In this document: positions 44,519 through 60,974 of the stretch, one piece after another
Layout of the letters: each line of letters opens with the position of its first letter
Position numbering within the stretch: position 1 is the first letter of the stretch
Assembly (NCBI RefSeq): GCF_027706745.1
Contig: NZ_JAQFWP010000003.1
Coordinates: forward strand, 124,001 to 188,000
From: Nocardiopsis suaedae
Lineage (GTDB): Bacteria > Actinomycetota > Actinomycetes > Streptosporangiales > Streptosporangiaceae
Direction: 5' to 3'
DNA length: 64,000 bases
The notes under the pieces: generated by a model
Databases searched by the model: none
Told to the model about the DNA's origin: nothing
Seen by the model: the letters and a program-made list of their open reading frames with translations, nothing else
Made by a program: the position numbers and the translations under genes

Positions 44519-45237
44519 TGCTGTGGGGCGTCCTGCCCTATGTGGTGCTGGTGCTCTTCGTCGGCGGGGCGGTCTGGCGCTACCGCTACGACCAGTTCGG
44601 GTGGACGACTCGCTCCTCGGAGCTGTACGAGTCACGGCTGCTGCGCATCGGCAGCCCGCTGTTCCACTTCGGGCTGCTGGTCGTGATCATCGGTCATGCG
44701 GTGGGGCTGGTCGTCCCCCGGGACTGGACGCGCGCCGCGGGCGTCTCGGACGCCGCCTACCACGCGGTGGCCCTGGGCCTGGGCGCCGTCGCCGGGGTGT
44801 GCACGCTGGCCGGGGTGGCGCTGCTCATCTGGCGGCGCCGCACCACCGGCCCGGTGTTCAGCGCTACGACCGGCAACGACAAGCTCATGTACGCGGTGCT
44901 GGTGCTGGCGATCGTGGCCGGGCTGGCCACCACCCTGGTCTCCACCGCCGCCGAGTTCACCGGGGCGCACGAGCCGGACTACCGCACGACCGTCTCGGTG
45001 TGGTGGCGGAGCATCTGGGTGCTCTCCCCGGACGTGCCGGCCATGGCGGCCGCCGGGGCGGCGTTCAAGGTCCACGTCCTGGTGGGCATGGCGCTGTTCG
45101 CCGTCTTCCCCTTCACCCGGCTGGTGCACGCCTTCAGCGCGCCGTGGTTCTACCTGTTCCGGCCCTATGTCGTCTACCGCTCCCGGAGCGGCCGTACGGT
45201 GCCGGCGACCCGCCCGGCGCGGAGGGGATGGAGCTGA
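44506..45237 (+). CDS. narI: respiratory nitrate reductase gamma subunit NarI
   Basis: A 243-residue cytochrome b subunit with five hydrophobic helices. Conserved His that may ligand the two haems are in SPLFHFGLLVVIIGHAVGL and KVHVLVGMALFAVFPFTRLVHAFSAPW. It oxidises menaquinol at the outer side and sends electrons to NarH. GTG 44506 has AGGAGG at a 6-bp distance. ATG 44515 is the alternative. Confidence 0.93.
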   Translation: MADMMLWGVLPYVVLVLFVGGAVWRYRYDQFGWTTRSSELYESRLLRIGSPLFHFGLLVVIIGHAVGLVVPRDWTRAAGVSDAAYHAVALGLGAVAGVCTLAGVALLIWRRRTTGPVFSATTGNDKLMYAVLVLAIVAGLATTLVSTAAEFTGAHEPDYRTTVSVWWRSIWVLSPDVPAMAAAGAAFKVHVLVGMALFAVFPFTRLVHAFSAPWFYLFRPYVVYRSRSGRTVPATRPARRGWS

Positions 45238-46208
45238 TGGAACAGGCCGCGGCGCCGACGGTGCTGCCGTCGATGCCCCTGCAGGAGTGGGCCCGGACCA
45301 AGGAGACGCTGCACCGCTACGAGCAGATCGTGGGCAAGGTGCGCCTGGCCGCGAGCCCGCGGCGCAACCACTGGTGGAACGTGCCGTTCCACCTCACCGG
45401 GACGGGTCTGACCACGCGCCCGATGGGGGTGGTGGACGGCAACCCGCTGTTCACCGTCGACTTCGACTTCGTGCGGCACCTGCTGGTCGCCTCCACCGAG
45501 GAGGGGCGCACCGCGGCCTTCCCGCTGGCCGGGCACAGCGTCGCCTCGTTCTACCGGGAGCTGCTGAGCGTCCTGGACGGGCTGGGCGTGCACGTGGAGA
45601 TCGCCCACCCCTACCCCTACGACCTGCCCGACGCGGGCCGCCCCTTCGCCGAGGACACCGAGCACGCGGCCTACGACCCGTCCTGGGCGAACCGGTACTG
45701 GAGGGTGCTGGGCCGGGTGGGGGAGATCCTGGAGGAGTTCGCCGCCGGGTACTCGGGAAAGACCAGCCCCGTGCACCATTTCTGGCACACCTTCGACATC
45801 GCGGTGACGCGCATCGGGGGAGTCCCCGTCCACCAGCCGGAGGAGGCGGGGCCGCTCATCCGCGAGGCCTACTCCGAAGAGGTGGTCAGCTTCGGCTTCT
45901 GGTTCGGCGACGACCGGGTCCCCGAGCCCGCGTTCTACTCCTACACCGCGCCCGAACCCGAGGGGCTGGACACGGCGCCCCTCCCCGAGGGGGCGGTGTG
46001 GGCCGAGAGCGGGCACGGGCACCTGGCGCTGCTGCCCTACGGCCGGGCGCGTGAGGCCGATGACCCGCGGGCGGCGGTGCTCGCCTTCTACCAGGCCGCC
46101 TACGAGGCCGGGGCGCCCCTGCTCGGGTGGGACACCGACCGGCTGGCCTGCCCCGGCGGCGTGACCGACCCGCACGACAAGCTGAGGAGCGACTGGTGGC
46201 AGATGTGA
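45237..46208 (+). CDS. DUF5996 family protein
   Basis: A 323-residue protein. The opening LPSMPLQEWARTKETLHRYEQIVGKVRLA and NHWWNVPFHLTGTGLTT, then HHFWHTFDIAVTRIGG and the C-terminal DPHDKLRSDWWQM, match the DUF5996 family as I know it. The function is unknown. Its ATG overlaps the narI stop, so it is probably translated from the nar transcript. ATG 45228 is an alternative start. No membrane segment or signal peptide is seen. Confidence 0.75.
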   Translation: MEQAAAPTVLPSMPLQEWARTKETLHRYEQIVGKVRLAASPRRNHWWNVPFHLTGTGLTTRPMGVVDGNPLFTVDFDFVRHLLVASTEEGRTAAFPLAGHSVASFYRELLSVLDGLGVHVEIAHPYPYDLPDAGRPFAEDTEHAAYDPSWANRYWRVLGRVGEILEEFAAGYSGKTSPVHHFWHTFDIAVTRIGGVPVHQPEEAGPLIREAYSEEVVSFGFWFGDDRVPEPAFYSYTAPEPEGLDTAPLPEGAVWAESGHGHLALLPYGRAREADDPRAAVLAFYQAAYEAGAPLLGWDTDRLACPGGVTDPHDKLRSDWWQM

Positions 46209-46519
46209 GCCCCACGGTGACCGACGTCCCGGCGCGGCGGCGGTACGAGGCCCGCGACGCCGGGGCGGAGGGGACGGTCGCCGGGTTCGCCGAGTACCTG
46301 CTCGCGGGGGAGATGGTGGTCTTCACCCACACCGAGGTCGACCCGTCCTACGAGGGCAGGGGGATCGGCAGCGCGCTCGTCCGCGCGTCCCTGGACGACG
46401 TCCGTTCGCGCGGGATGGTGGTGCTGCCGCTGTGCCCCTTTTACAAGGGGTGGATCCAGCGCCACCCTGAGTACGAGGACCTCGTCTACCGGCGGCCGCC
46501 GAGCAGTGTGACCGACTAG
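46196..46519 (+). CDS. small GNAT-like N-acetyltransferase (YidJ/CG type)
   Basis: A 107-residue protein. YEARDAGAEGTVAGFAEYLLAGEMVVFTHTEVDPSYEGRGIGSALVRASLDDVRSRGMVVLPLCPFYKGWIQRHPEY fits the short acetyltransferase-like family with the acetyl-CoA loop GRGIGSAL and the conserved CPFYKGWIQRHPEY end. The substrate is unknown. GTG 46196 follows GAGGAG. It overlaps the DUF5996 gene, making it the likely last gene of the nar transcript. Confidence 0.82.
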   Translation: MADVSPTVTDVPARRRYEARDAGAEGTVAGFAEYLLAGEMVVFTHTEVDPSYEGRGIGSALVRASLDDVRSRGMVVLPLCPFYKGWIQRHPEYEDLVYRRPPSSVTD

Positions 46520-46655
46520 CGGCGGGGAAGGGCGCAGGTCACAGAACGGTTGTCATCCGACAACGGGTGGCGGAATCCGGTGTCCCGAGCGCATGCGGGG
46601 GTACTGAGGGGTCTTGCCCTCATTCCTCCCCCTGAAGCAAAGGAGCACCAGGGTC

Positions 46656-48113
46656 TTGGAGACCTTAAACGACCTCCTGGTCACCTCTACGGACGCGTTC
46701 TGGCAGTTCCTGCTCATCCCGGTGCTGGCCGGGCTGAGCCTGTACTTCACCGTGCGGCTCGCCGGGGTGCAGATCCGCATGGTCCCCGACATGGTGCGCC
46801 AGCTGCGGGGCACGCCCGAGACGGCGCCCGACGGCAAGAAGGCCATCTCGCCGTTCCAGGCGTTCTCGATCTCCGCGGCGGCGCGCGTGGGCACCGGGAA
46901 CATCGTCGGCGTCGCCGGCGCGATCGCCGTCGGCGGCCCCGGCGCCGTGTTCTGGATGTGGATCATGGCCCTGCTCGTGGGCTCCGCGAGCTTCGTGGAG
47001 TCCACCCTCGCGCAGCTGTACAAGGTGCGCGACGCGACCGGGTTCCGCGGCGGCCCCGCCTACTACATGCAGCACGGGCTCGGAGCCCGCTGGATGGGCG
47101 TGGTCTTCGCCGTGCTCATCACGGTCACCTTCGGGTTCGTCTTCAACGCGGTGCAGTCCAACACCATCTCCGGTGCCGTGGCGAACTCGGTCGAGGTGGC
47201 CGGAGCGTCCGCCCCCGGCTGGCTGGCCCCGGCCGTCGGGGTGGCCCTGGTCGCGGTCACCGCGCTCGTCGTCTTCGGCGGCGTGCGCCGCATCGCGCAC
47301 GTCACCCAGGGGCTGGTGCCGTTCATGGCGCTGCTCTACATCCTGATGGCGCTGCTCGTCGTCGTGCTCAACGCCGACCAGATCGGCCCGGTGTTCACGC
47401 TGATCTTCGAGAGCGCCTTCGGCCTGCGCGAGGTGGCCGGGGCCGCCCTGTGGACCGTCATCATCCAGGGCGTGCGGCGGGGCATGTTCTCCAACGAGGC
47501 CGGGCTGGGCTCGGCGCCCAACGCGGGAGCCACCGCCTCGGTCAGCCACCCGGTCAAGCAGGGGCTGGTGCAGACCCTGGGCGTCTACTTCGACACCCTG
47601 GTCATCTGCACCATGACGGCCTTCCTGATCCTGGTCTCCAACCCGGTCTACGGCGAGGAGCGCGGGCCGGAGATGACGCAGGACGCGCTGCAGGCGGGCC
47701 TGGGCGCGTGGTCGGTGCACGCGCTGACCTTCGTCCTGCTGCTGCTGTGCTTCAGCTCCGTGCTGGGCAACTACTACTACGGCGAGGCCAACGTCCGCTT
47801 CCTCAGCCAGAAGAAGGGCGTGATGGCCGGCTTCCAGGTCGTCTTCCTGATCGCCACCTTCCTGGGCTCGATCGGCCAGGTGGCGCTGGTGTGGAGCCTG
47901 GCCGACACCACGATGGGCCTGATGGCGCTGGTCAACCTGCTGGCGATCGCGCCGTTGGGCGGGGTGGCCGTGCGGCTGCTGCGCGACTACCGCGACCAGA
48001 GCAGCAGGGGCGCCGACCCGGTGTTCACCCGGGACCGGGTCCCGGGGATCACCGGGATCCAGTGCTGGGAGGGCGAGGAGGACGCCCGCGAGGACGCCGC
48101 GGCGCGGTCCTGA
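46656..48113 (+). CDS. alanine/glycine:cation symporter (AGCS family)
   Basis: A protein of about 485 residues with 10-11 hydrophobic helices. ISPFQAFSISAAARVGTGNIVGVAGAIAVGGPGAVFWMW and FRGGPAYYMQHGLG are AGCS signatures. FSNEAGLGSAPNAGATA is also conserved. It imports alanine or glycine with Na+ or H+. I chose TTG 46656 because AGGAG lies 10 bp upstream; upstream TTG 46614 is less well supported. The preceding gap 46520-46655 shows nothing else. Confidence 0.92.
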   Translation: METLNDLLVTSTDAFWQFLLIPVLAGLSLYFTVRLAGVQIRMVPDMVRQLRGTPETAPDGKKAISPFQAFSISAAARVGTGNIVGVAGAIAVGGPGAVFWMWIMALLVGSASFVESTLAQLYKVRDATGFRGGPAYYMQHGLGARWMGVVFAVLITVTFGFVFNAVQSNTISGAVANSVEVAGASAPGWLAPAVGVALVAVTALVVFGGVRRIAHVTQGLVPFMALLYILMALLVVVLNADQIGPVFTLIFESAFGLREVAGAALWTVIIQGVRRGMFSNEAGLGSAPNAGATASVSHPVKQGLVQTLGVYFDTLVICTMTAFLILVSNPVYGEERGPEMTQDALQAGLGAWSVHALTFVLLLLCFSSVLGNYYYGEANVRFLSQKKGVMAGFQVVFLIATFLGSIGQVALVWSLADTTMGLMALVNLLAIAPLGGVAVRLLRDYRDQSSRGADPVFTRDRVPGITGIQCWEGEEDAREDAAARS

Positions 48114-48119
48114 CCCCGC

Positions 48120-48156
48120 CGGTCCCCGGCGCCCGGAGGCGGGGCGCCGGGGACCG
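48120..48156. terminator. hairpin terminator after the symporter gene
   Basis: A perfect 15-bp stem (48120-48134 with 48142-48156) with a 7-nt loop begins 6 bp past the stop. There is no T-run, as is common in high-GC actinomycetes. Confidence 0.7.
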
Positions 48157-48290
48157 CTGCGCGAGGGAACCCGGCAAACCACGGATAAGGCGACGAACCA
48201 CCGCAATGCGGGCGACGGGATGATGCCGGAACCGTCCCGACTCGCTAGTGTTCTACCTCACATCTGTGTGCCTGTTCCCAGGGGGACTGG

Positions 48291-48890
48291 ATGACCATCG
48301 TCTCGATCGAGCCCGCGACCCCGGACCGCTGGAACGACCTGGAACGGATGTTCGGCCCCACAGGCGCCTACGGGCACTGCTGGTGCGCCTTCTTCCGGCG
48401 CCGGGCCAAGGACTACACCGAGAGCGTCTCCTGCGCGCCCCCCGAACGCGGCCGTACCAACAAGGAGACCCTGCGCCGCATCACCCTCGACGGCAGGATC
48501 CCGGGCCTCATCGCCTACGACGGTGCAGAGCCGTGCGGGTGGGTCGCCGTCTCGCCCCGCAGCGAGTTCGTCCGCCTCACCCGCTCGCGCGCGCTGCGCC
48601 CCGTCGACCCCGACGAGTCCGGGGTCTGGTCGGTGGTGTGCTTCTGGCTCCCTCCGCGCGGCCGCCGCAAAGGACTGGGCACCCGCCTGCTCGACGCCGC
48701 GATCGAGTACGCGCGCGCCGAAGGCGGCCGTGTGCTGGAGGCCTATCCCGTGGACACCGCGGGCGGCCGCGCACCCAGTGCGGAGGTGTACACCGGCACC
48801 GTCCGCATGTTCCGCAAGGCGGGCTTCACCTGTGGCGCCCACCCCGTGAGCGGGCGCCCCGTCGCACGCCTGGACCTCAAGGAGGCCTGA
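48291..48890 (+). CDS. GNAT family N-acetyltransferase
   Basis: A 199-residue protein. The acetyl-CoA loop RRKGLGTRLLDAAIEYARAEG and the FRKAGF end motif mark the GNAT fold. HCWCAFFRRR near residue 28 and VWSVVCFWLPPRGR are typical of the subfamily with this Trp/Cys-rich N-terminus. The substrate is unknown. It stands alone behind a 134-bp gap without other genes. Confidence 0.85.
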   Translation: MTIVSIEPATPDRWNDLERMFGPTGAYGHCWCAFFRRRAKDYTESVSCAPPERGRTNKETLRRITLDGRIPGLIAYDGAEPCGWVAVSPRSEFVRLTRSRALRPVDPDESGVWSVVCFWLPPRGRRKGLGTRLLDAAIEYARAEGGRVLEAYPVDTAGGRAPSAEVYTGTVRMFRKAGFTCGAHPVSGRPVARLDLKEA

Positions 48891-48896
48891 CGGCCG

Positions 48897-49391
48897 TCAG
48901 GCCTCGGCGAGGCCGCGGATCCCCTCGACGGTGGCCCGCATGCCCTCCTCCAGCATGGTCAGGCGCTTCGTCACGATGCGGTCCGCGTCATGCGGCCGCT
49001 TCACGGCGATCTCGTCCATCGGGCTGGGGTCGGGGCCGACGGCCATCGACTGGCGGAGCACGGTCCCTCCGTCCTCCGCGCGCAGGTCGAAACGCCAGGT
49101 GGCGACCCGCCGCCCGTCGGGCAGCAGGACGTGCCAGGCGAACGCGTGCGGCTCGTCGACCTCCACCACCTCGCTGGTGGTGGTCCATTCGCCCATGTAG
49201 TCGTTGCGGTTGCGGCCCGAGAAGCGCGCCCCGACCCGGGGGCCGTCGGCGCCGTCGATCCACTCGGCGCCCCGCAGCTCGCCGCTGAACCGCGGCGGAA
49301 CGGTGATGTCCGAGGCCAGGGACCATACTTGCGCGGGTACGGCCCGGATGCGCGTCTCCACCTCGACGGTGCGGTCCTCAAGGGAGTACAT
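48897..49391 (-). CDS. SRPBCC family protein
   Basis: A 164-residue protein. [39 protein letters not shown] and [20 protein letters not shown] fit the polyketide-cyclase/START-like SRPBCC fold that binds hydrophobic ligands. The ligand is unknown. ATG 49391 is the start. It is convergent with the GNAT gene and divergent from the copper ATPase gene. Confidence 0.85.
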
Positions 49392-49451
49392 GCGCCGAAT
49401 GTAGCCGGGGGCCGCGCGCTCCAGGCGGGTGGGCCGTCCTCGCTCTCTTGA

Positions 49452-49468
49452 ATACCCTAGGGGGGTAT
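49452..49468. promoter_or_regulatory. CsoR-type copper-responsive operator
   Basis: ATACCCTAGGGGGGTAT has ATACCC and GGGTAT arms around a 5-bp centre, matching the TACCC...GGGTA pattern of CsoR operators. It lies 43 bp upstream of the copper ATPase start, where a repressor would block the promoter. No csoR gene is in the window. Confidence 0.75.
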
Positions 49469-49510
49469 GGTACCTATAGAGTGGTGGACGACGGACGAGA
49501 GGAACGCGGC

Positions 49511-51796
<2,286 letters not shown>

Positions 51797-51845
51797 TTGC
51801 GGTCGGGGTTGCGGTCCGACCGGAAAACCGAATGCCCAGCGCAGT

Positions 51846-51876
51846 GCGCCCCCGCGGTCACGGACCGTGGGGGCGC
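51846..51876. terminator. hairpin terminator after copA
   Basis: A 14-bp stem (51846-51859 with 51863-51876) has one G-T pair and a 3-nt loop, 50 bp after the copA stop. No T-run. Confidence 0.65.
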
Positions 51877-51977
51877 CCCTGTCGCCGTGGGCCCCGGGCC
51901 GCTACCGTTACCCGGCGTACCCCCCGGATCCGGGGCATTCCCGAACGTCCCGGCGAGCGACGAGAACGGAATCGGCA

Positions 51978-53315
51978 TTGGCGACCGGCCACCCCCCTCT
52001 GGAGCTGTACGACCCCGGCTTCCACGCCGACCACCACGCGGCCTACGCGCGGATGCGCAAAGAGCACGGACCCGTCGTCCCCGTGATGCTGGAGCCCGGC
52101 GTCGAGGGGCGCCTGGTGGTCGACTACGCACTGATCACCGCCTGGTGCCGGGACGAGCGCACCTTCAGCCGGGACGCGCGCCGGTGGAGGGACTGGCGCG
52201 AGGGGCGCATCCCCGACGACTCCTCCCTGCTGGGGATGATGGGCCACCGGCCCAACGCCCTGTTCTCCGACGGCGAGGAGCACCGCCGGGTGCGGCGCGC
52301 CATGGTCGACTCCCTCAGCCCGTTCGAGCCCGGGCGGGTCGGCGCCGAGGCGCGGTCGGTCGCCGAGCGGCTCGTCGACGGCTTCTGCGAGCGCGGCGAG
52401 GCCGAGCTCATGGAGGAGTTCGCGCGGCCCCTGCCGCTGCTCGTCATGAACGGCATGTTCGGCATGGACCAGGAGTCCGGCCGCCGCTTCTTCACCGCCC
52501 TGCGCGACATGTGGGACGGCGTGGACGCCGAACGGGCCAACGCCGAGCTGGAGCGGGTGCTCTCGGCCCACATCGACCGCAAGCGCGACCACCCCGGCGA
52601 CGACATCACCAGCACGCTCATGCGGCACCGGGCCGGGCTCACCGACGAGGAGGTCCTGCAGCACCTGGTGCTCATGGTCGGGGCCGGGCACGAGCCCAGC
52701 GCCGCCCTGCTGTCCAACTCGGTCCGGGTGCTGCTCACCGACCGCGCGCTCGGCGACGACCTGGCCGGGGCGCGCACCGGCATCGACGAGGCGATCGAGC
52801 GGGTCATGTGGAGCGCGCCGCCGGTCACCAACTACCCGGTGATGTACCCGGTGCGGGACGTGGAGGTGCCCGGCGGGTCCGTGGTGCCCGAGGGCACGCC
52901 GGTGCTGCTGGGCTTCGCCGCGGCCAACCGCTTCCTCTCCGAGGAGTACGCCGACCGCATGGACGACGCTCCCAACCGGGCCCACCTGGCCTGGGGCGTG
53001 GGCGCGCACCGCTGCCCGGCCAAGGACATCGCCACCGCCATCGCCGTCGCGGGGATCGAGGTGCTCGTCCGGCGCCTTCCCGGGCTGCGGCTCGGCGTCG
53101 CCCCCGACGAGCTCTCCTGGCGCGTCTCACCGTTCGCCCATGCGCTCACGCGGCTGCCCGTCGCGTTCACCCCCCAGGACCCGGAAGAGGAAGGAACGCC
53201 GTGGACCCCGTCCGACTCGGTACCGGAGACCTCCACCCCCAAGCGGCCGAGCTCCGAGAGGCCGGCGCAGTCGTCCCTGTCGAACTTCCTGGTGAGGTTG
53301 CTGCGTGGGCGGTGA
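51978..53315 (+). CDS. cytochrome P450, CYP157-like, lacking the K-helix ExxR motif
   Basis: A 445-residue P450. The haem loop is WGVGAHRCPAK, with Cys as haem ligand, and the I-helix has MVGAGHEPSA. In the K-helix, where other P450s have ExxR, the sequence is EAIERVMWSAPP (E274 to W278), so the Arg is replaced. CYP157 proteins of Streptomyces are known, as I recall, for exactly such an E-x-x-x-W motif. The last 38 residues (PWTPSDSVPETSTPKRPSSE onward) extend beyond the usual P450 end and overlap the start of the next P450 by 115 bp. The start is probably TTG 51978, with a weak ribosome-binding site. Confidence 0.85.
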   Translation: MATGHPPLELYDPGFHADHHAAYARMRKEHGPVVPVMLEPGVEGRLVVDYALITAWCRDERTFSRDARRWRDWREGRIPDDSSLLGMMGHRPNALFSDGEEHRRVRRAMVDSLSPFEPGRVGAEARSVAERLVDGFCERGEAELMEEFARPLPLLVMNGMFGMDQESGRRFFTALRDMWDGVDAERANAELERVLSAHIDRKRDHPGDDITSTLMRHRAGLTDEEVLQHLVLMVGAGHEPSAALLSNSVRVLLTDRALGDDLAGARTGIDEAIERVMWSAPPVTNYPVMYPVRDVEVPGGSVVPEGTPVLLGFAAANRFLSEEYADRMDDAPNRAHLAWGVGAHRCPAKDIATAIAVAGIEVLVRRLPGLRLGVAPDELSWRVSPFAHALTRLPVAFTPQDPEEEGTPWTPSDSVPETSTPKRPSSERPAQSSLSNFLVRLLRGR

Positions 53316-54409
53316 CCCGCTACGAGACCGTGCGTGAGGTGGTCACCCGCCCGGACGTCAAGAAGAACCCGGTGCACTGGCGGGCCTGGCGGGAGGGGCG
53401 CATCCGCCCCGACTGGCAGCTCATCTCCTGGGTCGCCGCCGAGAACATGCTGGCCCGGGACGACGAGGACCACACCCGGCTGCGCAAGCTGGTGTCCAAG
53501 GCGTTCACCCCGCGCCGGGTGGAGGGCATGCGCGCCCGCATCGAGGAGCTGGTGGAGGGCCTGCTGGACCGGATGGCCGCCGGCGGCCCGGTCGCCGACG
53601 TCAAGGCCGACTACGCCTACCCGCTGCCGATGACGGTGATCAGCGACCTGTTCGGGGTGGACGACGACGGCTCCCGCGACGAGCTGCACCGGCGCATCGG
53701 GATGATGTTCGACCAGACCATCACCCCCGAGCAGGCGCTGGAGAACCACGAGGGCACCCAGCGGTTCCTCGCCGGGCTGATCGAGCGCAAGCGGGCGGCC
53801 CCGGCCGACGACATGACCAGCGCGCTCATCGCCGCGCGCGATGAGGACAACGACCGGCTCAGCGAGTCCGAGCTGGTCTGGACGCTCATCCTGATCATCG
53901 GCGCCGGGTTCGAGACCACCATGAACCTGCTGACCAACGCGGTGCAGGCGCTGCTGACCCACCGCGACCAGCTCGACCTGGTGGTGCGCGGGGAGCGCCC
54001 CTGGAGCGACGCGGTCGAGGAGACGCTGCGCTGGAACACCTCGATCCAGAACGTGCCGCTGCGGTTCGCCGCCGAGGACCTGGTGATCGACGGCACGACC
54101 GTTCCCGCGGGCGACGCGCTGCTGGTCTCCTACGGGTCGGCCGGGCGCGACCCCCGGGCCCACGGGGACACCGCCGACCGCTTCGACCTCACGCGCGAGG
54201 ACAAGGCGCACGTGTCCTTCTCGCACGGGCCGCACTACTGCCTGGGCGCCAACCTGGCCCGGATGGAGCTGAACACCGCGCTGCCCGCGCTCTTCCGGCG
54301 CTTCCCGGACATGGAGCTGGTGGACACCGAGCCCGAGCAGGTGCCCTCCATCGTCTCCAACGGCGTGGTCGCGCTGCGGGTGCGCCTCGGCGGGGAGCAC
54401 ACGGGCTGA
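53201..54409 (+). CDS. cytochrome P450, CYP154-like
   Basis: A 402-residue P450 with full motifs: I-helix IIGAGFETTMN, K-helix ETLRW (ExxR intact) and haem loop FSHGPHYCLGANLAR. It directly follows the CYP157-like gene, which is the known pairing in actinomycetes. Starting at GTG 53201 (MDPVRLGTGDLHPQ), it has GAGGAAGGA upstream and begins inside the previous gene in another frame. It probably hydroxylates a small hydrophobic substrate. No ferredoxin or reductase gene is adjacent. Confidence 0.92.
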   Translation: MDPVRLGTGDLHPQAAELREAGAVVPVELPGEVAAWAVTRYETVREVVTRPDVKKNPVHWRAWREGRIRPDWQLISWVAAENMLARDDEDHTRLRKLVSKAFTPRRVEGMRARIEELVEGLLDRMAAGGPVADVKADYAYPLPMTVISDLFGVDDDGSRDELHRRIGMMFDQTITPEQALENHEGTQRFLAGLIERKRAAPADDMTSALIAARDEDNDRLSESELVWTLILIIGAGFETTMNLLTNAVQALLTHRDQLDLVVRGERPWSDAVEETLRWNTSIQNVPLRFAAEDLVIDGTTVPAGDALLVSYGSAGRDPRAHGDTADRFDLTREDKAHVSFSHGPHYCLGANLARMELNTALPALFRRFPDMELVDTEPEQVPSIVSNGVVALRVRLGGEHTG

Positions 54410-54421
54410 GCCGGGCCGTCC

Positions 54422-54451
54422 GAGGGCGTGTCCGATTCCGGACACGCCCTC
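54422..54451. terminator. hairpin after the P450 pair
   Basis: A perfect 13-bp stem (54422-54434 with 54439-54451) with loop ATTC starts 12 bp after the stop. No T-run. Confidence 0.7.
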
Positions 54452-54538
54452 AGATTCGGCGCGTCGGCGGGCATTTAGACTCGCTGACGGCGCGGCCGCG
54501 GCGGCCGGGCCGCCCCAGGACCCGAGGAAGCCCCACCC

Positions 54539-56149
54539 ATGAGTACAGAGCAGACCGCGCCGGGCCACCTGCTGGCCGGGCGCTACCGGCTCACCGAGCT
54601 GATCGGTGCGGGCGGCATGGGCCGCGTCTGGCGCGGCACCGACGAGCTGCTGGACCGCCCCGTCGCGGTCAAGGAGCTCACCATCCCGCCGCACCTGCCC
54701 GACACCGAGGTGGAGGTGCTGCGCACCCGGATGCTGCGGGAGGCGCGCAGCGCGGCGCGGCTGGGCCACCCCTCCATCATCACCGTCTTCGACGTGGTGG
54801 ACAGCGACGAGCGGCCGTGGATCGTGATGGAGCTGGTGCGCGGGCGCTCGCTGGGCACGGTCATCAAGGAGGACGGCGTCCTCGACCCCGGCCGGGCCGC
54901 CGCCATCGGGGTGCAGACGGCCACCGCGCTGTCCATCGCGCACGACCGGGGCATCGTGCACCGCGACATCAAGCCCGGCAACGTGCTGATCGCGCCGGGG
55001 GACCGGGCGGTCCTCACGGACTTCGGCATCGCCCGGCTGGAGGGGACCTCCGGGCTCACCCGCACCGGGCTGCTCGTCGGCTCCCCCGGCTACCTCTCGC
55101 CCGAGCAGGCGCAGGGCGGCCCGGCCACCCCGGCCTCCGACATCTGGTCGCTGGGGGTGACCCTCTACCAGGCGGTGGAGGGGCGGGTGCCGTTCGCCCG
55201 GGAGGCGGCGGTGGGGACGCTGACGGCCATCGTCACCGAGGAGGTGCCGCCGCCGCAGAACGCGGGCGTGCTCGCCCCGGTGCTGACGGCGCTGCTGGAC
55301 AAGGACCCGGAGCGGCGCCCGGACATCGCCGGGGTGCACCGGATGCTGGCCGAGGCGGCCGAGAAGGCGAAGAAGAAGGGGAGGAAGGCGCAGGCGGCGG
55401 CCCCCGCGGCCAGCGCCGCCACGACCCCCGCCTCCCCGCCCCCGTACCTGCCGCCCGGTGCCGGGGACGGGCCCTCCACCGGCGGGGACGGGCGCGGCCG
55501 CAGGCTGCTCCTCCTGGGAAGCGCCGCCGCCGTTGTGGCGGCCGCCGCCGTCGGCCTGGCCTTCTGGCTGGGCAACGGCGGCCTTGACGGGGCCGACCCG
55601 GCCTCGCAGACGCCCCCGCAGGCCGCGGCGACGCCGTCGGAGGACGCGTCCGACGGCGGCTCCGACGGGGACGCTGAGCCCTCGTCGTCGCCGTCGCCGT
55701 CCGACTCGCCCTCGCCCGGGACCGAGATGGCCACCTACGAGGACGAGACCGGCTTCTCCGTGGACCTGCCCGAGGGGTGGGAACTGCGCGAGCGGCAGGG
55801 GACCAGCGTCTTCTTCGACATCCCCGGGGGCGGCTACCTTCAGATCGACCAGACCGACGACCCCGGCGACGACGCCAAGGCGGACTGGGAACAGCAGGAG
55901 GGGGCCATCTCCGGCAACTTCTCGGGATACGAGAAGCAGAGCATCGAGGTGTTGGAGGAGCCCTTCGTCGACCGCTACGTCAGCGCGGCCGACTGGGAGT
56001 TCACCTTCGACGGACGGCACGCGGTGAACCGGGCGTTCCACACCGAGGAGAAGGGGTACGCGCTGTTCCTGGTCTCCCCGCCGGAGACCTGGGAGGAGAA
56101 CCGGGAGCTGTTGGACCCCATCACCGCGTCCTTCGAACCCGCCGCCTAG
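54539..56149 (+). CDS. membrane Ser/Thr protein kinase with extracytoplasmic domain
   Basis: A 536-residue protein. Kinase motifs are GAGGMGRVWRG, VAVKEL, VHRDIKPGNVLI and DFGIARLEG, with SPEQAQGG in the activation segment. A basic juxtamembrane stretch (AEKAKKKGRKAQ), a transmembrane helix near 322-345 and an acidic Ser/Pro linker follow. The outer domain (about 400-536) has YEDETGFSVDLPEGWELRERQG, a small beta-rich sensor-like fold. The stop codon TAG is part of the MITE-like end described next. It is encoded just after the P450 pair, with no functional link shown. Confidence 0.92.
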   Translation: MSTEQTAPGHLLAGRYRLTELIGAGGMGRVWRGTDELLDRPVAVKELTIPPHLPDTEVEVLRTRMLREARSAARLGHPSIITVFDVVDSDERPWIVMELVRGRSLGTVIKEDGVLDPGRAAAIGVQTATALSIAHDRGIVHRDIKPGNVLIAPGDRAVLTDFGIARLEGTSGLTRTGLLVGSPGYLSPEQAQGGPATPASDIWSLGVTLYQAVEGRVPFAREAAVGTLTAIVTEEVPPPQNAGVLAPVLTALLDKDPERRPDIAGVHRMLAEAAEKAKKKGRKAQAAAPAASAATTPASPPPYLPPGAGDGPSTGGDGRGRRLLLLGSAAAVVAAAAVGLAFWLGNGGLDGADPASQTPPQAAATPSEDASDGGSDGDAEPSSSPSPSDSPSPGTEMATYEDETGFSVDLPEGWELRERQGTSVFFDIPGGGYLQIDQTDDPGDDAKADWEQQEGAISGNFSGYEKQSIEVLEEPFVDRYVSAADWEFTFDGRHAVNRAFHTEEKGYALFLVSPPETWEENRELLDPITASFEPAA

Positions 56150-56313
56150 GTCCTGTCCGGAGTCCTGTGGCGTCCCGCCGGTACGGGCCCCTCCGGCCCG
56201 GGTTCCCGTTGTTGATCTCGGGGAAGTCGGGCTTAAGGTGTCCGTTTTTACCCCGGGTTCCCCGAGATCAACAACGGGGGCGGCCAGGTGAAGGGGGAAC
56301 TCCGGACAGGACC
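56149..56313. mobile_element. MITE-like element, 165 bp, with 15-bp terminal inverted repeats
   Basis: The ends are GGTCCTGTCCGGAGT (56149-56163) and its exact reverse complement (56299-56313). Inside is a 21-bp perfect inverted repeat (56205-56225 and 56258-56278). No protein is encoded. The left end fused to CTAG (56146-56149) supplies the TAG stop of the kinase gene. The same 18-mer, CTAGGTCCTGTCCGGAGT, occurs again at 59068-59085 on the minus strand. This is what a non-autonomous transposable element looks like, but a terminator role is also possible. Confidence 0.65.
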
Positions 56314-56427
56314 GAGTGCTTCGGGCTCGGGAAGGCGTCTCCACCGTCCGATGCTTGTGGTCCTTGCTGCTTGGCGGACCCACCCCCGGTTCGCGGTGCC
56401 GGGGTGTGTGGGCCCGTTGCTGTCGTC

Positions 56428-56910
56428 TCAGCCCAGGAGCCCGATGGCGTAGGCGGTCAGGAGCATGCCGAGCACCGTGCATGCGTGCCGGGTGCTCTCC
56501 CAGCGGCGGGCGGACTCGGTCAGGGCACGGGAGCGCTGGAGGCGCCCTCTCGGGAAGAGTCTTTTCCGCTTCTGGGCCATGGGGGACGGGCCAGCGGGTG
56601 CGTTCGCCGGGGCGAGGGGGCTGCGGTGTCTGGTCTCGGGCGGGGGCGGGGCCGCGTTCTGCTCCTGGGGGGCGAGTTCGGTGTGCAGGCGGGCCAGCCA
56701 GGGCGGGAGTGCCCGGTCCTGGCTTTGGTCGTCGGCCGGGAGGCGCAGGTTGGTCGCTGGGCGGGGCCCAGCGGGCCGGGGGAGTTCGGCGTAGGGGCGG
56801 GCGCGGTTGAACCGTCGCCCCTTGGGGGCGTCCAGGACGGAGCGGATGCGCGGGTTGGGCTGGGTGGTGGGCCCGGTGGCCGTGGGGGCAGGGGCCTGGT
56901 CGGTGGTCAT
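56428..56910 (-). CDS. hypothetical protein with C-terminal membrane helix
   Basis: A 160-residue protein, not recognised. It is Pro/Ala/Arg-rich and mostly disordered by composition, ending in a hydrophobic helix (HACTVLGMLLTAYAIGLLG), so it may be tail-anchored. ATG 56910 has AAGGAA upstream. Codon use fits the surroundings. Bases 56314-56427 and 56911-57130 show no gene. Confidence 0.5.
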   Translation of the reverse strand: MTTDQAPAPTATGPTTQPNPRIRSVLDAPKGRRFNRARPYAELPRPAGPRPATNLRLPADDQSQDRALPPWLARLHTELAPQEQNAAPPPPETRHRSPLAPANAPAGPSPMAQKRKRLFPRGRLQRSRALTESARRWESTRHACTVLGMLLTAYAIGLLG

Positions 56911-57130
56911 GGCACCGGTGGTTCCTTGCGTTCGATGTGAGCGGACGTGGGGAAGCGCGGGCGGCGGGGTCGTGGCCGCCCTCCGGTGGTGAGCGGGGTG
57001 GGGTGCTGCGGCCGCCCTGGTGTTCGGCGGGGCCCCCGGCGTGCGGTGCCGCCCCCTCGTTTCGCGGCACCGGACCCTCGGGCGGAACCCCTTCCGGGGC
57101 GGCCGCAGCGGTCTATTCGGTGGCGCCGGG

Positions 57131-57646
57131 TCAAGCGGTGAAGATGAAGGGTTCCAGGCCCCGGGGGACCTGTGCGGGGTCGACGGGCAGGTCCGCCCAC
57201 ACGCACAGGCCCAGGTTCAGGCTCGGGTGGGGCAGGACGGGGAAATAGCCCCACCGGCGGGCGAGGGAATCGATGAGCAGAAGGCCGCGCTGGCCTTCGG
57301 CCTCGGCCCAGTCGTGGGCGGTCCGGTCAGTGGGCACGGCGGGCCGGGCGCTGGTCCACCCGGAGTCGGTGACGTGCAATCGGAGGGTGTCGGGCCGGTG
57401 CAGGCACAGGCGGCGGACCACCTCCCCGCCCTCGGTGCCGGAGGCGGTGTAGGAAACCGCGTTGGCGAACAGCTCGGAGCAGCACAGCTCCACGCTGTCG
57501 ACGGCGTCGTCGGGGAAGCCCTTCAGGTCGGTGCGCACGTGGGTGCGCACCCGCGAGGCCTGGGAGAGCGTGCCGGGGTAGATGCGCGGTTCCCACCGCA
57601 CCGACCGGAAGGTGGGCGGGCGCGGCGTGCGGGACGAGGCGGACAT
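57131..57646 (-). CDS. ATP-binding protein, SpoIIAB/RsbW-like (HATPase_c_2)
   Basis: A 171-residue protein. ELCCSELFANAVSYTASGTEGGEVVRRLCL is the N-box region and LHVTDSGWTSARP with GQRGLLLIDSLARRWGY the G-boxes of the anti-sigma-factor-type HATPase fold. Such proteins are typical companions of WhiJ/Scr1 HTH and DUF397 genes in actinomycetes. It is divergent from the HTH gene, 170 bp away. Confidence 0.87.
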   Translation of the reverse strand: MSASSRTPRPPTFRSVRWEPRIYPGTLSQASRVRTHVRTDLKGFPDDAVDSVELCCSELFANAVSYTASGTEGGEVVRRLCLHRPDTLRLHVTDSGWTSARPAVPTDRTAHDWAEAEGQRGLLLIDSLARRWGYFPVLPHPSLNLGLCVWADLPVDPAQVPRGLEPFIFTA

Positions 57647-57715
57647 GGAGCCTCCAGGAGTGAACGACCACGGGTCATGCGGTCACCTGTTGTGATCGGG
57701 CCCACACTGAAACAC

Positions 57716-57731
57716 AATGCGTGCATGCATT
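57716..57731. promoter_or_regulatory. near-palindromic box in the HATPase-HTH divergent region
   Basis: AATGCGTGCATGCATT (57716-57731) is palindromic except for one base pair, and GCATTGCA occurs at 57728-57735 and again at 57765-57772. This region is clearly richer in A and T than its surroundings. The boxes could bind the XRE regulator encoded next. Confidence 0.5.
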
Positions 57732-57816
57732 GCAACACGCTTTGAGAAAATGCTTTGCGGGCACGCATTGCATACTCGACTTGTAGGAAACCCCTGGAGA
57801 GAGGCAGTCTTGGGCC

Positions 57817-58671
57817 ATGGCCGCAGACGAGAACCCGACCATTGCGCAGTGGCAGCTCGCCCGCGCATTGACGGACCTGCGCGGACGCATCGCGCAGCGG
57901 CGACTTGCGAAGGACCTCGACATCGATGCGAGCACGCTGGTCCGTTGGGAGAAGGGAGAGACCGTCCCCCGCGAGCGCCAGCTGCGCAAGGTGCTGGCCT
58001 ACTTCGGGGTTCCGGGGGACGAGGTCGAACGCCTGGTCGCCCTTCGAGCCGAGGCCGCCGCCCCTGTCTGGTGGCAGGAGACCGAGGTCGCCAGGGCGTA
58101 CGGCCAGTACATCGACTTGGAGAACTCGGCGTCGCAGATATCGACATACCAGGACCGTCTTGTGCCAGGGCTGCTCCAGACGGCCGACTACGCGCGTGCC
58201 ATCCTCGCGGCCGGGCATCCTCGGGCGACCGACGACGAGATCGACGGCCTGCTGCAGGTGCGGATGAGGCGTCAGGATGACTGGGAGGAGGGCGGGGCGC
58301 TGCTGTGGGCGATCATCGACCAGGCGGCACTGGAGAAGCACATCGGTGGCTCCGCCGTCATGCACGCGCAGGTGCAGCACCTGATCTCCATGACGAAGCA
58401 CCCGCGGATCGACCTACAGGTGCTGCCCAACTCGGCGGGGGCGCACGCCGCCCTTCAGACGGGGTCATTCGTGCTGTTGGAGCTTGAGATGCCGTCGATG
58501 CAGGTCATCTACATCGAATCGCATACCCGGAACCTCCTGCTGGACGACCAGAAGGAGGTCACCGCGCATTGTCGGCTCCTCGATCACCTGCGTGCGGCAG
58601 GGACCAACACGCCACAGACACGCGACCTTTTGAACGACCTGATGAAGCGGTACGAAGGGAGATCCTCATGA
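57817..58671 (+). CDS. XRE-family HTH regulator with DUF5753 domain (WhiJ/Scr1-like)
   Basis: A 284-residue protein. The N-terminal HTH covers about residues 12-65 (LRGRIAQRRLAKDLDIDASTLVRWEKGE), and DUF5753 starts with WWQETEVARAYGQYIDLENSASQISTYQDRLVPGLLQTADYARAI. This pair is the standard layout of WhiJ/Scr1-like regulators in filamentous actinomycetes. It probably represses or activates its own cluster. The stop overlaps the DUF397 gene by ATGA. Confidence 0.92.
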   Translation: MAADENPTIAQWQLARALTDLRGRIAQRRLAKDLDIDASTLVRWEKGETVPRERQLRKVLAYFGVPGDEVERLVALRAEAAAPVWWQETEVARAYGQYIDLENSASQISTYQDRLVPGLLQTADYARAILAAGHPRATDDEIDGLLQVRMRRQDDWEEGGALLWAIIDQAALEKHIGGSAVMHAQVQHLISMTKHPRIDLQVLPNSAGAHAALQTGSFVLLELEMPSMQVIYIESHTRNLLLDDQKEVTAHCRLLDHLRAAGTNTPQTRDLLNDLMKRYEGRSS

Positions 58672-58859
58672 GTCAGGGGTACTGGAGAGAGTGGTTCACT
58701 TCGAGTTACAGCGGCTCGCACGGTGAATGCGTCGAGGTAGCCGACTCCCCCGGTGCCAGCGCCGTGCGCGACACCAAGCACCGTGAACTCGGCGCACTGC
58801 TCTTCAGATCCCCCGAGTGGCGCGCTTTCATCGACGCCGCCAAGCGGGACGCCTTCTAA
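58668..58859 (+). CDS. DUF397 domain-containing protein
   Basis: A 63-residue protein. WREWFTSSYSGSHGECVEVAD and VRDTKHRELGALLFRSPEWRAFI define DUF397. Genes of this type nearly always follow a DUF5753 regulator, as here (ATGA overlap). They have been discussed as toxin-like or regulator partners; the function is not settled. Confidence 0.93.
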   Translation: MSQGYWREWFTSSYSGSHGECVEVADSPGASAVRDTKHRELGALLFRSPEWRAFIDAAKRDAF

Positions 58860-58866
58860 CCCCCCA

Positions 58867-59085
58867 GTGCCTCCCCATCACTCCGTCTCCGTCGCCGGTG
58901 CGGTCGTCCGCGAGGACGGCCGCATCCTGGCCATCCGCCGTGCCGACAACGGGCATTGGGAACCGCCGGGCGGCGTCCTGGAGCCCGACGAGGACTTCGG
59001 GGCCGGTGTCCGCCGCGAGATCCGCGAGGAGACCGGCCTCCACGTGCACCCGGGGGGACACCGCAGAACTCCGGACAGGACCTAG
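58867..59085 (+). pseudogene. truncated Nudix hydrolase
   Basis: A 72-residue fragment with an intact Nudix box (GVLEPDEDFGAGVRREIREETGL) and the first strand SVSVAGAVVREDGRILAIRR. A functional Nudix protein is usually 130-160 residues. The frame stops within the 18-mer repeat at 59068-59085, so the 3' half is missing, probably lost through that repeat. Start GTG 58867 is the only reasonable one. The fragment probably does not fold correctly. Confidence 0.8.
59068..59085 (-). repeat. solo copy of the MITE-like end
   Basis: Read on the minus strand, this is CTAGGTCCTGTCCGGAGT, identical to 56146-56163 on the plus strand and one base different from the right end at 56299-56316. The palindromic CTAG gives TAG stops to the Nudix fragment on one strand and the quinone reductase gene on the other. 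Confidence 0.75.
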
Positions 59086-59852
59086 CGCACCAGGTGGGCG
59101 GCGTTCCCCTCCTCGCCGGGCGCCAGTTCCGGGCGCAGCACCAGGGCGTCGTCGTAGTCGCCGCCGTTCTGGGAGCGGAACGGGATCGGGTCGGTCCGCC
59201 AGGCCGCCAGGACGCGCTCGGCCAGGTGCTTGCCCGCGCGCTCGGCGTCCTCGGCCGAGGAGCGATCGGCGCTGTGCACGACCACCGGCGGCAGCACGTC
59301 CATGCCCGTGTACCAGAAGGTGCCGTGGTTGAGCGGGAAGAGGATGTCCTCGATGGCGCCGTTGACGCCGCGCGGCCCGATCGAGGTCTCCCGGGCGCCG
59401 ACGGTGGTCACCGCGAGCGCGCGCCTGCCGGACAGCGGACCCTCGCCGTAGCGCAGGGCGCGCCCGGTGCCGGGGTCGTACACCCCGTACCCGAACCCCA
59501 GGGTGAGGACGCGGTCGAACCAGCCCTTGAGGATCGCCGGGACGCCGTACCACCACAGGGGGAACTGGACGACGACCGTGTCGGCCCACAGCAGCTTCTC
59601 CTGCTCGGCGACGATCTCCGGGGCGAGGGTCCCGTTCTCCCGGGCGTCCCTGGAGGCGGCGGGGACCCGCAGCCGGTCGGCGGGGTCGCGGCCGAAGTCG
59701 GCGGGCGTCACGACCGGGTTCCACTCCATCGCGTACAGGTCGGACTCCCGCACGGAGTGCCCCTCCTCGGCGAGGGCGCGCAGCGCGGTGTCCCGCAGCG
59801 CGCCGTTGAGGGAGCGGGCGTCGGGGTGGGCGAAGACCCAGAGGACGTTCAT
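59082..59852 (-). CDS. NAD(P)H-dependent quinone reductase (flavodoxin-like, NQO1/KefF type)
   Basis: A 256-residue protein. MNVLWVFAHPDARSLNGAL, DTVVVQFPLWWYGVPAILKGWFDRVLTLGFGYG and ALAVTTVGARE match the flavodoxin_2 NAD(P)H dehydrogenase family that reduces quinones with FMN or FAD. AGGAGAG precedes ATG 59852. It is divergent from a GlxA-type regulator. Its last codons come from the repeat-derived sequence, but the catalytic domain is complete. Confidence 0.9.
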   Translation of the reverse strand: MNVLWVFAHPDARSLNGALRDTALRALAEEGHSVRESDLYAMEWNPVVTPADFGRDPADRLRVPAASRDARENGTLAPEIVAEQEKLLWADTVVVQFPLWWYGVPAILKGWFDRVLTLGFGYGVYDPGTGRALRYGEGPLSGRRALAVTTVGARETSIGPRGVNGAIEDILFPLNHGTFWYTGMDVLPPVVVHSADRSSAEDAERAGKHLAERVLAAWRTDPIPFRSQNGGDYDDALVLRPELAPGEEGNAAHLVR

Positions 59853-59867
59853 CGGAGCTCTCCTAGG

Positions 59868-59906
59868 CGTGTCTCGTAGCCGTGTCTTGTAGCCGTGTCC
59901 CGGGAA
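59868..59906. repeat. 13-bp tandem repeat in the quinone reductase/GlxA divergent region
   Basis: CGTGTCTCGTAGC (59868-59880) is followed by CGTGTCTTGTAGC (59881-59893) and a degenerate third unit (59894-59906). The position right upstream of the reductase start makes it an operator candidate. Confidence 0.5.
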
Positions 59907-59978
59907 CATGACGATCCTGCGGCCCGGGGGCGCACCCCGGCGAGTGGCCCGTCGGCCGACATGCGCAAGAATCGGGCC

Positions 59979-60974
59979 ATGGACACGTTCGCTCCCGACA
60001 CCCGGCACCGCGTCGCCCTGCTCGTCCGGGACGGGGCGCTGGCGATGGAGACCGGGATCGTCCACCGGATCTTCGGCGAGGCGCGCTCCGCCGACGGGGC
60101 CCCGCTGTACTCCGTCGTCACCTGCGCCGTGCGCCCCGGTGCGGTCCGCACCGACGCCGACTTCACGTTCAACGTCGACCACGGGCCCGAGGCCCTGGCC
60201 GAGGCCGACACCGTCGTGGTGCCCGCCTCCGACGTCGACTACGAACCGCGCGGCGGCCCGCTGGAGGGGGAGCTGGCCGAGGCCTTCGCCCGCATCCCGT
60301 CCGGGACGCGGTACGCCTCGGTCTGCACCGGCTCGTTCGTGCTCGCCGCCGCCGGGTTGCTCGACGGGCGGCGGGCCACCACGCACTGGCGGTCGGCGGG
60401 GCTGCTGGCGCGGCTCTACCCGGCCGTGCACGTCGAACCGGACGTGCTCTACACCGATGAGGGCGACGTGCTCACCGCCGCGGGAGTGGCCGCCGGGATC
60501 GACCTCTGCCTGCACATGGTCCGACAGGACCACGGGGCCGCGGTCGCGGCCGAGGTCGCCCGCCGCACGGTCGTTCCGCCGCACCGCGACGGCGGGCAGG
60601 CCCAGTACATCGAGCGGCCGGTGCCGCGCCCCGCTGAGGGCGGGGCCACGGCGGCGGCGCGGGCCTGGGCGGAGGCCGACCTGGCCCGTCCCATGCGGCT
60701 GGCCGCGATGGCCGAGCGGGCGTCGATGAGCGTGCGCACCTTCACCCGGCGCTTCCGGGAGGAGACCGGCGAGTCGCCCGCGCGCTGGCTGCACCGGCAG
60801 CGCCTGGCCTACGCACGCGAGCTGCTGGAGCGGACGGACCTGCCGGTCGACCGGGTGGCCGAGAAGGCGGGACTGGGCACGGCGGCGTCGCTGCGCGCGC
60901 ACATGAAGGCCGACGCGGGGGTGTCGCCCACCGGGTACCGCCGGACCTTCCGCGGGACTACCCCGCCCCGGTGA
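59979..60974 (+). CDS. GlxA-type transcriptional regulator (DJ-1/PfpI + AraC)
   Basis: A 331-residue protein. The N-terminal DJ-1/PfpI-like domain has YASVCTGSFVLAAAGLLDGRRATTHW with the nucleophile-elbow Cys. The C-terminal AraC domain has LAAMAERASMSVRTFTRRFREETGESPARWL and DRVAEKAGLGTAASLRAHMKADAGVSPTGYRR. It probably controls the divergent quinone reductase. ATG 59979 is preferred; ATG 59961 in the same frame is possible. The stop overlaps the convergent TetR gene by 17 bp. Confidence 0.9.
   Translation: MDTFAPDTRHRVALLVRDGALAMETGIVHRIFGEARSADGAPLYSVVTCAVRPGAVRTDADFTFNVDHGPEALAEADTVVVPASDVDYEPRGGPLEGELAEAFARIPSGTRYASVCTGSFVLAAAGLLDGRRATTHWRSAGLLARLYPAVHVEPDVLYTDEGDVLTAAGVAAGIDLCLHMVRQDHGAAVAAEVARRTVVPPHRDGGQAQYIERPVPRPAEGGATAAARAWAEADLARPMRLAAMAERASMSVRTFTRRFREETGESPARWLHRQRLAYARELLERTDLPVDRVAEKAGLGTAASLRAHMKADAGVSPTGYRRTFRGTTPPR

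Follow-up and report, generated by a model that had tools for sequence, protein, structure and literature searches.

The P450 gene pair in the window

We analysed a 64,000-nucleotide stretch of the Nocardiopsis suaedae genome (the window), in which the gene of a cytochrome P450 lacking the ExxR motif of the K-helix overlaps the start of a second P450 gene. The features considered here all lie on the + strand:

51978..53315 (+): CYP157-like P450 lacking ExxR, 445 aa, TTG start (P450 homology from phmmer against PDB)
52683..52700 (+): I-helix A236-G-H-E239-P240-S241, with Pro replacing the conserved Thr (translation and family alignment)
52797..52811 (+): K-helix E274-R-V-M-W278 at the ExxR site (translation and alignments)
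53013..53015 (+): haem-ligand Cys346 in the context HRCPA, with Ala348 for the Gly of CxG (translation and family alignment)
53201..53315 (+): 115-nt overlap, dual-coding as judged from codon usage, of the CYP157-like C-terminal tail and the CYP154-like N-terminus, in different frames
53271..53312 (+): C-terminal hydrophobic-cationic peptide SSLSNFLVRLLRGR of the CYP157-like protein
53201..54409 (+): CYP154-like partner P450, GTG start, EETLR intact (best named match CYP154C1, 347 bits)
49448..51796 (+): copper-type P-type ATPase, upstream neighbour, for which no functional link is claimed
54539..56149 (+): Ser/Thr protein kinase, downstream neighbour, syntenic in near relatives only

The CYP157-like protein (hereafter the window protein) matched 349 distinct PDB sequences in a phmmer search at E<=0.001, with a best E of 1.1e-37 over residues 24-395. 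Pfam PF00067 gave no match to it at E<=0.001, and since this model misses 51978-53315 entirely, Pfam-based P450 counts may omit copies of this kind. The start position is conserved among the orthologues, which are 97% (N. endophytica), 96% (N. chromatogenes) and 90% (N. halophila) identical to the window protein. The partner retains EETLR and AGFETT, and its GTG start is preceded by AGGAAGG; among named structures it scored 347 bits with CYP154C1 (1gwi) and 312 bits with CYP154A1, with some unnamed P450 chains scoring alike. A scan for promoters and terminators found none. A functional tie of the pair to the Cu-ATPase or the Ser/Thr kinase was considered and rejected: the arrangement is lineage synteny in close relatives only, and no match was found in five other loci (L186, L187, L173, L171 and L175). 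In another locus (L181, 9634-10002, - strand), residues 275-397 of the CYP154-like partner recur beyond the Ser/Thr kinase in a second stretch, at 76% identity.

Hallmark residues of the window protein and its family

The original prediction held that Trp replaces the ExxR Arg in E274-R-V-M-W278, while the I-helix and the Cys ligand are intact. Translation of nt 52797-52811 confirmed the Trp, and all 44 genus- and family-level loci extracted have it at this position; its TGG codon is a single T-to-C transition from the Arg codon CGG, so that its retention points to selection. Ungapped alignments with PikC (EEMLR against ERVMW) and with P450s of the same genome place W278 at the Arg site and R275 at the Glu site, with E274 one residue ahead of the Glu position, a reading in which both ExxR residues are replaced. 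A second phmmer alignment (6a7i) has a gap beside W278; we preferred the ungapped reading because of the downstream PP/DPP anchor, as family members such as DEVLWTDPP share the DPP register with partners such as EEVLRYDPP. An intact ExxR elsewhere in the protein was looked for. All other E..R matches (EEHR, EPGR, EFAR, ESGR and ELER) lie ahead of the K-helix, and therefore no intact motif was overlooked; the alignments to PikC and to the own-genome P450s likewise rule out a misplaced motif. Chance or a sequencing artefact is ruled out by the presence of the substitution in the orthologues and in the paralogues.

The I-helix is altered as well, contrary to the original prediction: P240 replaces the Thr (AGHE-P240-S, against the usual AG-x-[DE]-T-T), and A348 occupies the position of the CxG Gly. 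Cys346 is in place, as claimed, and the HxR of the C-helix is retained. A structure prediction of the window protein from five sequences reached a pLDDT of 49.5, which is too poor to show the packing of Trp278. Another P450 of the same genome (L017; G000 C3, near 85633-85890), which from its motifs we take to be CYP152-like, has Arg-Pro in the I-helix (LRPTTA) and an intact QEVRR, and its Pro appears to coincide in position with P240.

Of the 20 P450-like loci judged in the N. suaedae genome, 17 have ExxR in the K-helix. The motif is missing from the other three, namely the window protein and two paralogues on contigs C51 (39% identity) and C18 (36%), so a single family accounts for its loss. 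All six genus genomes searched contain three family members each. At E<=1e-60, 53 of 120 genomes gave a match in the family-level search and 36 of 148 in the class-level search, the latter an upper bound for the family because matches at this threshold also take in ordinary P450s. From loci fetched at the genus, family and class levels (the matches of the latter two in part), we assembled 110 distinct actinobacterial members with profile scores >295 bits, ordinary P450 neighbours reaching <=282 bits. The controls were 53 P450s, of which 14 came from the same genome and the rest were neighbours of members.

The Arg position is R in 53/53 controls; in the members it is W in 81, F in 13, R, L and M in 3 each, Y and H in 2 each, and Q, A and K in 1 each. 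The ExxR Glu was found in 56/110 members and 53/53 controls, the I-helix Thr in 9/110 (Pro in 77) against 52/53, and the CxG Gly in 15/110 against 53/53. The C-helix His, in turn, is kept in 101/110 members and the haem Cys in 109/110 aligned members; the row of the remaining one (L164) was clipped, and its ORF does contain the Cys. W, Cys and other columns are invariant among 29 diverse members, and E..R together with the I-helix Thr occurred in 0/110. Judged by these counts, the family has thus evidently lost the catalytic accessories of a monooxygenase and kept haem ligation. The original prediction had also called the loss stable and the protein conserved. The second part is supported by a dN/dS of the gene body of 0.12, 0.16 and 0.21 for three orthologues (the L039 partner comparison, which looks misaligned, was ignored, and the values for L040 and L041 were too diverged for use), and the gene is not decaying; the first needs the qualification that Trp is not universal in the family. 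The three members with Arg (L139, L165 and L143) are nested in the tree and are most simply read as reversions.

Two other groups of members depart from the common pattern. A deep branch scoring 310-316 bits (L107, L112, L122, L128, L166 and L167) carries Leu or Met in place of the Arg and no longer shows the AGxET pattern in the I-helix, with the Cys still present. Two genomes from another family (G222 and G151; loci L151 and L158) yielded 10-11 matches apiece. Most of these are members in which Phe or Tyr occupies the Arg position, and some stand in tandem, three of them clustered around a single ExxR P450.

The original prediction also pointed to CYP157. Motif and relatives agree with this, and on their basis we are highly confident that the window protein is a degenerate P450 of the CYP157/CvnE type. 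It is 33-40% identical to members with published CYP157 motifs and 44-46% identical to conservon-linked members with DEVLW (Trp), and all of these fall into one clade (FastTree). The window copy itself is not a member of a conservon: a search of window positions 45001-60000 for cvnA-D genes gave no GTPase, DUF742, roadblock or kinase match, and all DUF742 matches of the genome are on other contigs. The paralogue on C18 (L033, 7889-13818 of G000 C18) lies in a complete conservon with kinase, roadblock, DUF742 and GTPase genes, and faces a convergent ExxR P450 from a different clade.

The CYP154-like partner and the overlapping tail

A FastTree tree was built without the K-helix columns; it was made quickly and includes few outgroups. 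All members group together in it (support 100), and their sister group consists of 33 CYP154-like neighbours (support 98; 99 for the two groups jointly). From 37 adjacent pairs we removed 2 upstream duplicates as well as 4 pairs in which the neighbour does not belong to the CYP154-like clade. In the remaining 31 pairs, the distances among members and among partners were correlated with a Mantel r of 0.82, which was reached by 0/5000 free permutations, and the nearest pair agreed in 20/31 member-partner pairs. When swaps were limited to pairs of the same genome, again 0/5000 reached r 0.82 (mean 0.35), so co-inheritance exceeds mere species history. In a wide-context set of 90 members with about 5 kb on each side (window excluded), an ExxR P450 lay directly downstream on the same strand in 29 cases and was convergent in 6; none was present within 400 nt downstream in 55. 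The CYP154-like partner is therefore common and co-inherited, yet not obligatory for the family. In the same set, 46 members were linked to a conservon and 44 were not, and seven relatives resemble the window copy in that they lack a conservon and overlap with their partner.

The overlap is exactly 115 nt long in eight window-type loci, namely the window, three close orthologues, L040, L041, L052 and L053. In the window, 13/36 partner codons (36%) inside the overlap end in A or T, compared with 3/345 (0.9%) after it (Fisher p 2.3e-12); the other seven loci gave a Fisher p of 1e-6 or below, although the loci are related and not independent. For 25 non-overlapping partners, the corresponding counts were 44/474 in the matching segment and 600/8833 elsewhere. 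The wobble base of the partner is the second codon base of the member frame, which sets hydrophobicity. When the partner was recoded synonymously according to its own codon preferences, 0/2000 trials yielded a tail as hydrophobic as SSLSNFLVRLLRGR. Locus L185 has no partner gene, yet its tail still ends TLSDLLSMLRRKR.

Among five window-type orthologues, 8-14 of the last 14 residues are identical, as are 9-21 of the preceding 24. The dN/dS of the member frame over the whole overlap was above 1 in comparison with the two closest orthologues (1.6 and 2.8, from few changes), so the linker part looks free, with constraint apparently confined to the last residues. Amphipathicity by itself makes no strong case for the tail, as the helical moment is only moderate: 11-26 of 200 shuffles of the same residues were as high for the window protein and orthologues at 71-97% identity, and 44-52 of 200 for L052. 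In 5/15 overlap loci (L057, L062, L067, L065 and L075), either the codon shift or the hydrophobic character of the tail is less pronounced, and the final RGR is the shadow of the partner's AWAVT. Apart from this RGR, the codon usage, the outcome of the recoding and the locus without a partner argue that the tail did not arise simply by reading on into the partner gene. We conclude that the overlap is genuinely dual-coding and that the terminal peptide has been under selection in this lineage. In the literature, as far as its text was available, our search found nothing on a C-terminal tail or a dual-coding overlap of CYP157, on which the 2006 CYP157 paper may say more.

Possible function and relation to known systems

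A stripped P450 that keeps its haem is more readily understood as a sensor or modulator than as an enzyme, and the overlap of its gene with that of a normal P450 suggests that it is no ordinary enzyme but an accessory partner. The window copy is conservon-free and the CYP154-like P450 is its only evident candidate partner, so we propose, tentatively, that the window protein is a haem-thiolate accessory subunit of the CYP154-like P450, in which the tail would serve for docking or for contact with the membrane. In such a history, an old duplication would have left one copy, the CYP154-like one, as the oxygen-activating enzyme, while the CYP157-like copy would have turned into an accessory subunit that binds haem, sensing a ligand or the redox state and either modulating its partner or holding it in position. 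The Pro/Ser-rich linker and the short hydrophobic-cationic C-terminal peptide could dock the CYP157-like protein on the partner or on a membrane. Conservon-linked relatives would act on the CvnA kinase, as proposed for CvnE, and the window copy would have kept only the P450 partner. The wider generalization is possible but rather unlikely to hold in full: that the CYP157-like/CYP154-like pair is a two-subunit P450 system of a stripped, haem-loaded regulatory or scaffolding subunit and a normal P450, and that one conservon-free lineage gained a dual-coded hydrophobic-cationic C-terminal anchor over the start of the partner, locking the two subunits together genetically and functionally.

The main rival is that the window protein is an active but unusual P450, peroxide-using or redox-neutral (isomerase- or cyclase-like), which needs no O2-activating Thr; Trp and other packing would replace the stabilisation by ExxR, and the protein would convert what its CYP154-like neighbour produces or uses. 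We consider this unlikely on balance. The retained Cys and C-helix HxR agree with it, as does the Pro at the Thr position of the own-genome CYP152-like P450 (RPTT), and co-inheritance with CYP154-like enzymes is compatible with a two-step pathway no less than with a complex. However, this CYP152-like copy keeps its ExxR, and peroxygenase- or isomerase-type P450s are not known to share the loss of the motif; the drift of residues at the Arg position across the family fits relaxed catalysis better, and no biosynthetic genes were found beside the pair among the annotated neighbours. A title in the reference list of PMC7369989 points the other way, as it cites CYP154A1 for a cyclisation without oxidation or reduction.

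More doubtful is an ordinary O2-dependent monooxygenase in which Trp replaces Arg structurally, as the CYP157 literature has been taken to imply. PMC3990721 states that such P450s are functional, and 9/110 members do have the I-helix Thr, but none of the 110 combines it with E..R, and in the window copy the Thr, the ExxR Glu and Arg and the CxG Gly are all replaced. A decaying gene that lost these residues together because the protein was no longer needed is highly improbable and already contradicted, as the gene is intact in 6/6 genus genomes, has a low dN/dS, keeps its invariant columns among 29 members and is under a dual-coding constraint.

The more informative features, namely the co-inherited CYP154-like neighbour, the conservon-free setting and the dual-coded tail, are absent from the original prediction. 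The loss itself, with Trp in its place, was already published for CYP157 (PMC3599690, PMC3990721); new here are the finding that Thr, Glu and Gly are lost jointly, a co-inheritance statistic for CYP157-like/CYP154-like pairs, and a conservon-free lineage with a dual-coded tail. Joint residue losses, a shared history with CYP154-like P450s and a selected overlapping-frame tail may turn a 'P450 without ExxR' into a testable two-protein hypothesis. In Streptomyces, CYP157 and CYP154 are two of the P450 families with the highest abundance, with 525 and 510 members, respectively, in 203 species (PMC7369989).

Like CYP157A and CYP157C of Streptomyces, for which the motifs EVLW and EQSLW/EQILW are given in PMC3599690, the window protein has no ExxR, has Trp at the Arg position and keeps the haem Cys; it differs from them in the motif ERVMW, the lack of a conservon and the long tail encoded in the overlap. 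With the CvnE accessory P450s of conservons, the G-protein systems of actinobacteria, it shares the family, and the C18 paralogue lies directly behind a CvnD-type GTPase, whereas cvnA-D genes are missing from the surroundings of the window copy. In S. coelicolor, P450 genes belong to conservons 9-12 (PMC8510531). A 2026 paper treats CvnE P450s as accessory to CvnA kinases lacking sensory domains, proposes CvnE as a sensor or modulator of CvnA, with an AlphaFold-predicted kinase contact, and describes CvnE-type proteins as not yet assessed biochemically (PMC13343842). Because the window copy has no conservon, this model is not directly applicable to it. The CYP154 P450s (CYP154A1, CYP154C1) are the sister clade and supply the neighbour gene; unlike the window protein, the CYP154-like neighbours retain ExxR, the I-helix Thr and CxG. 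A precedent for an accessory subunit with a P450 fold is provided by the P450-derived glycosyltransferase activators (TIGR04515) such as DesVIII and EryCII. The window protein scored 70.6 bits with TIGR04515, against a cut-off of 343, and is not a member; these activators are described as having lost the Cys, whereas the window protein retains it.
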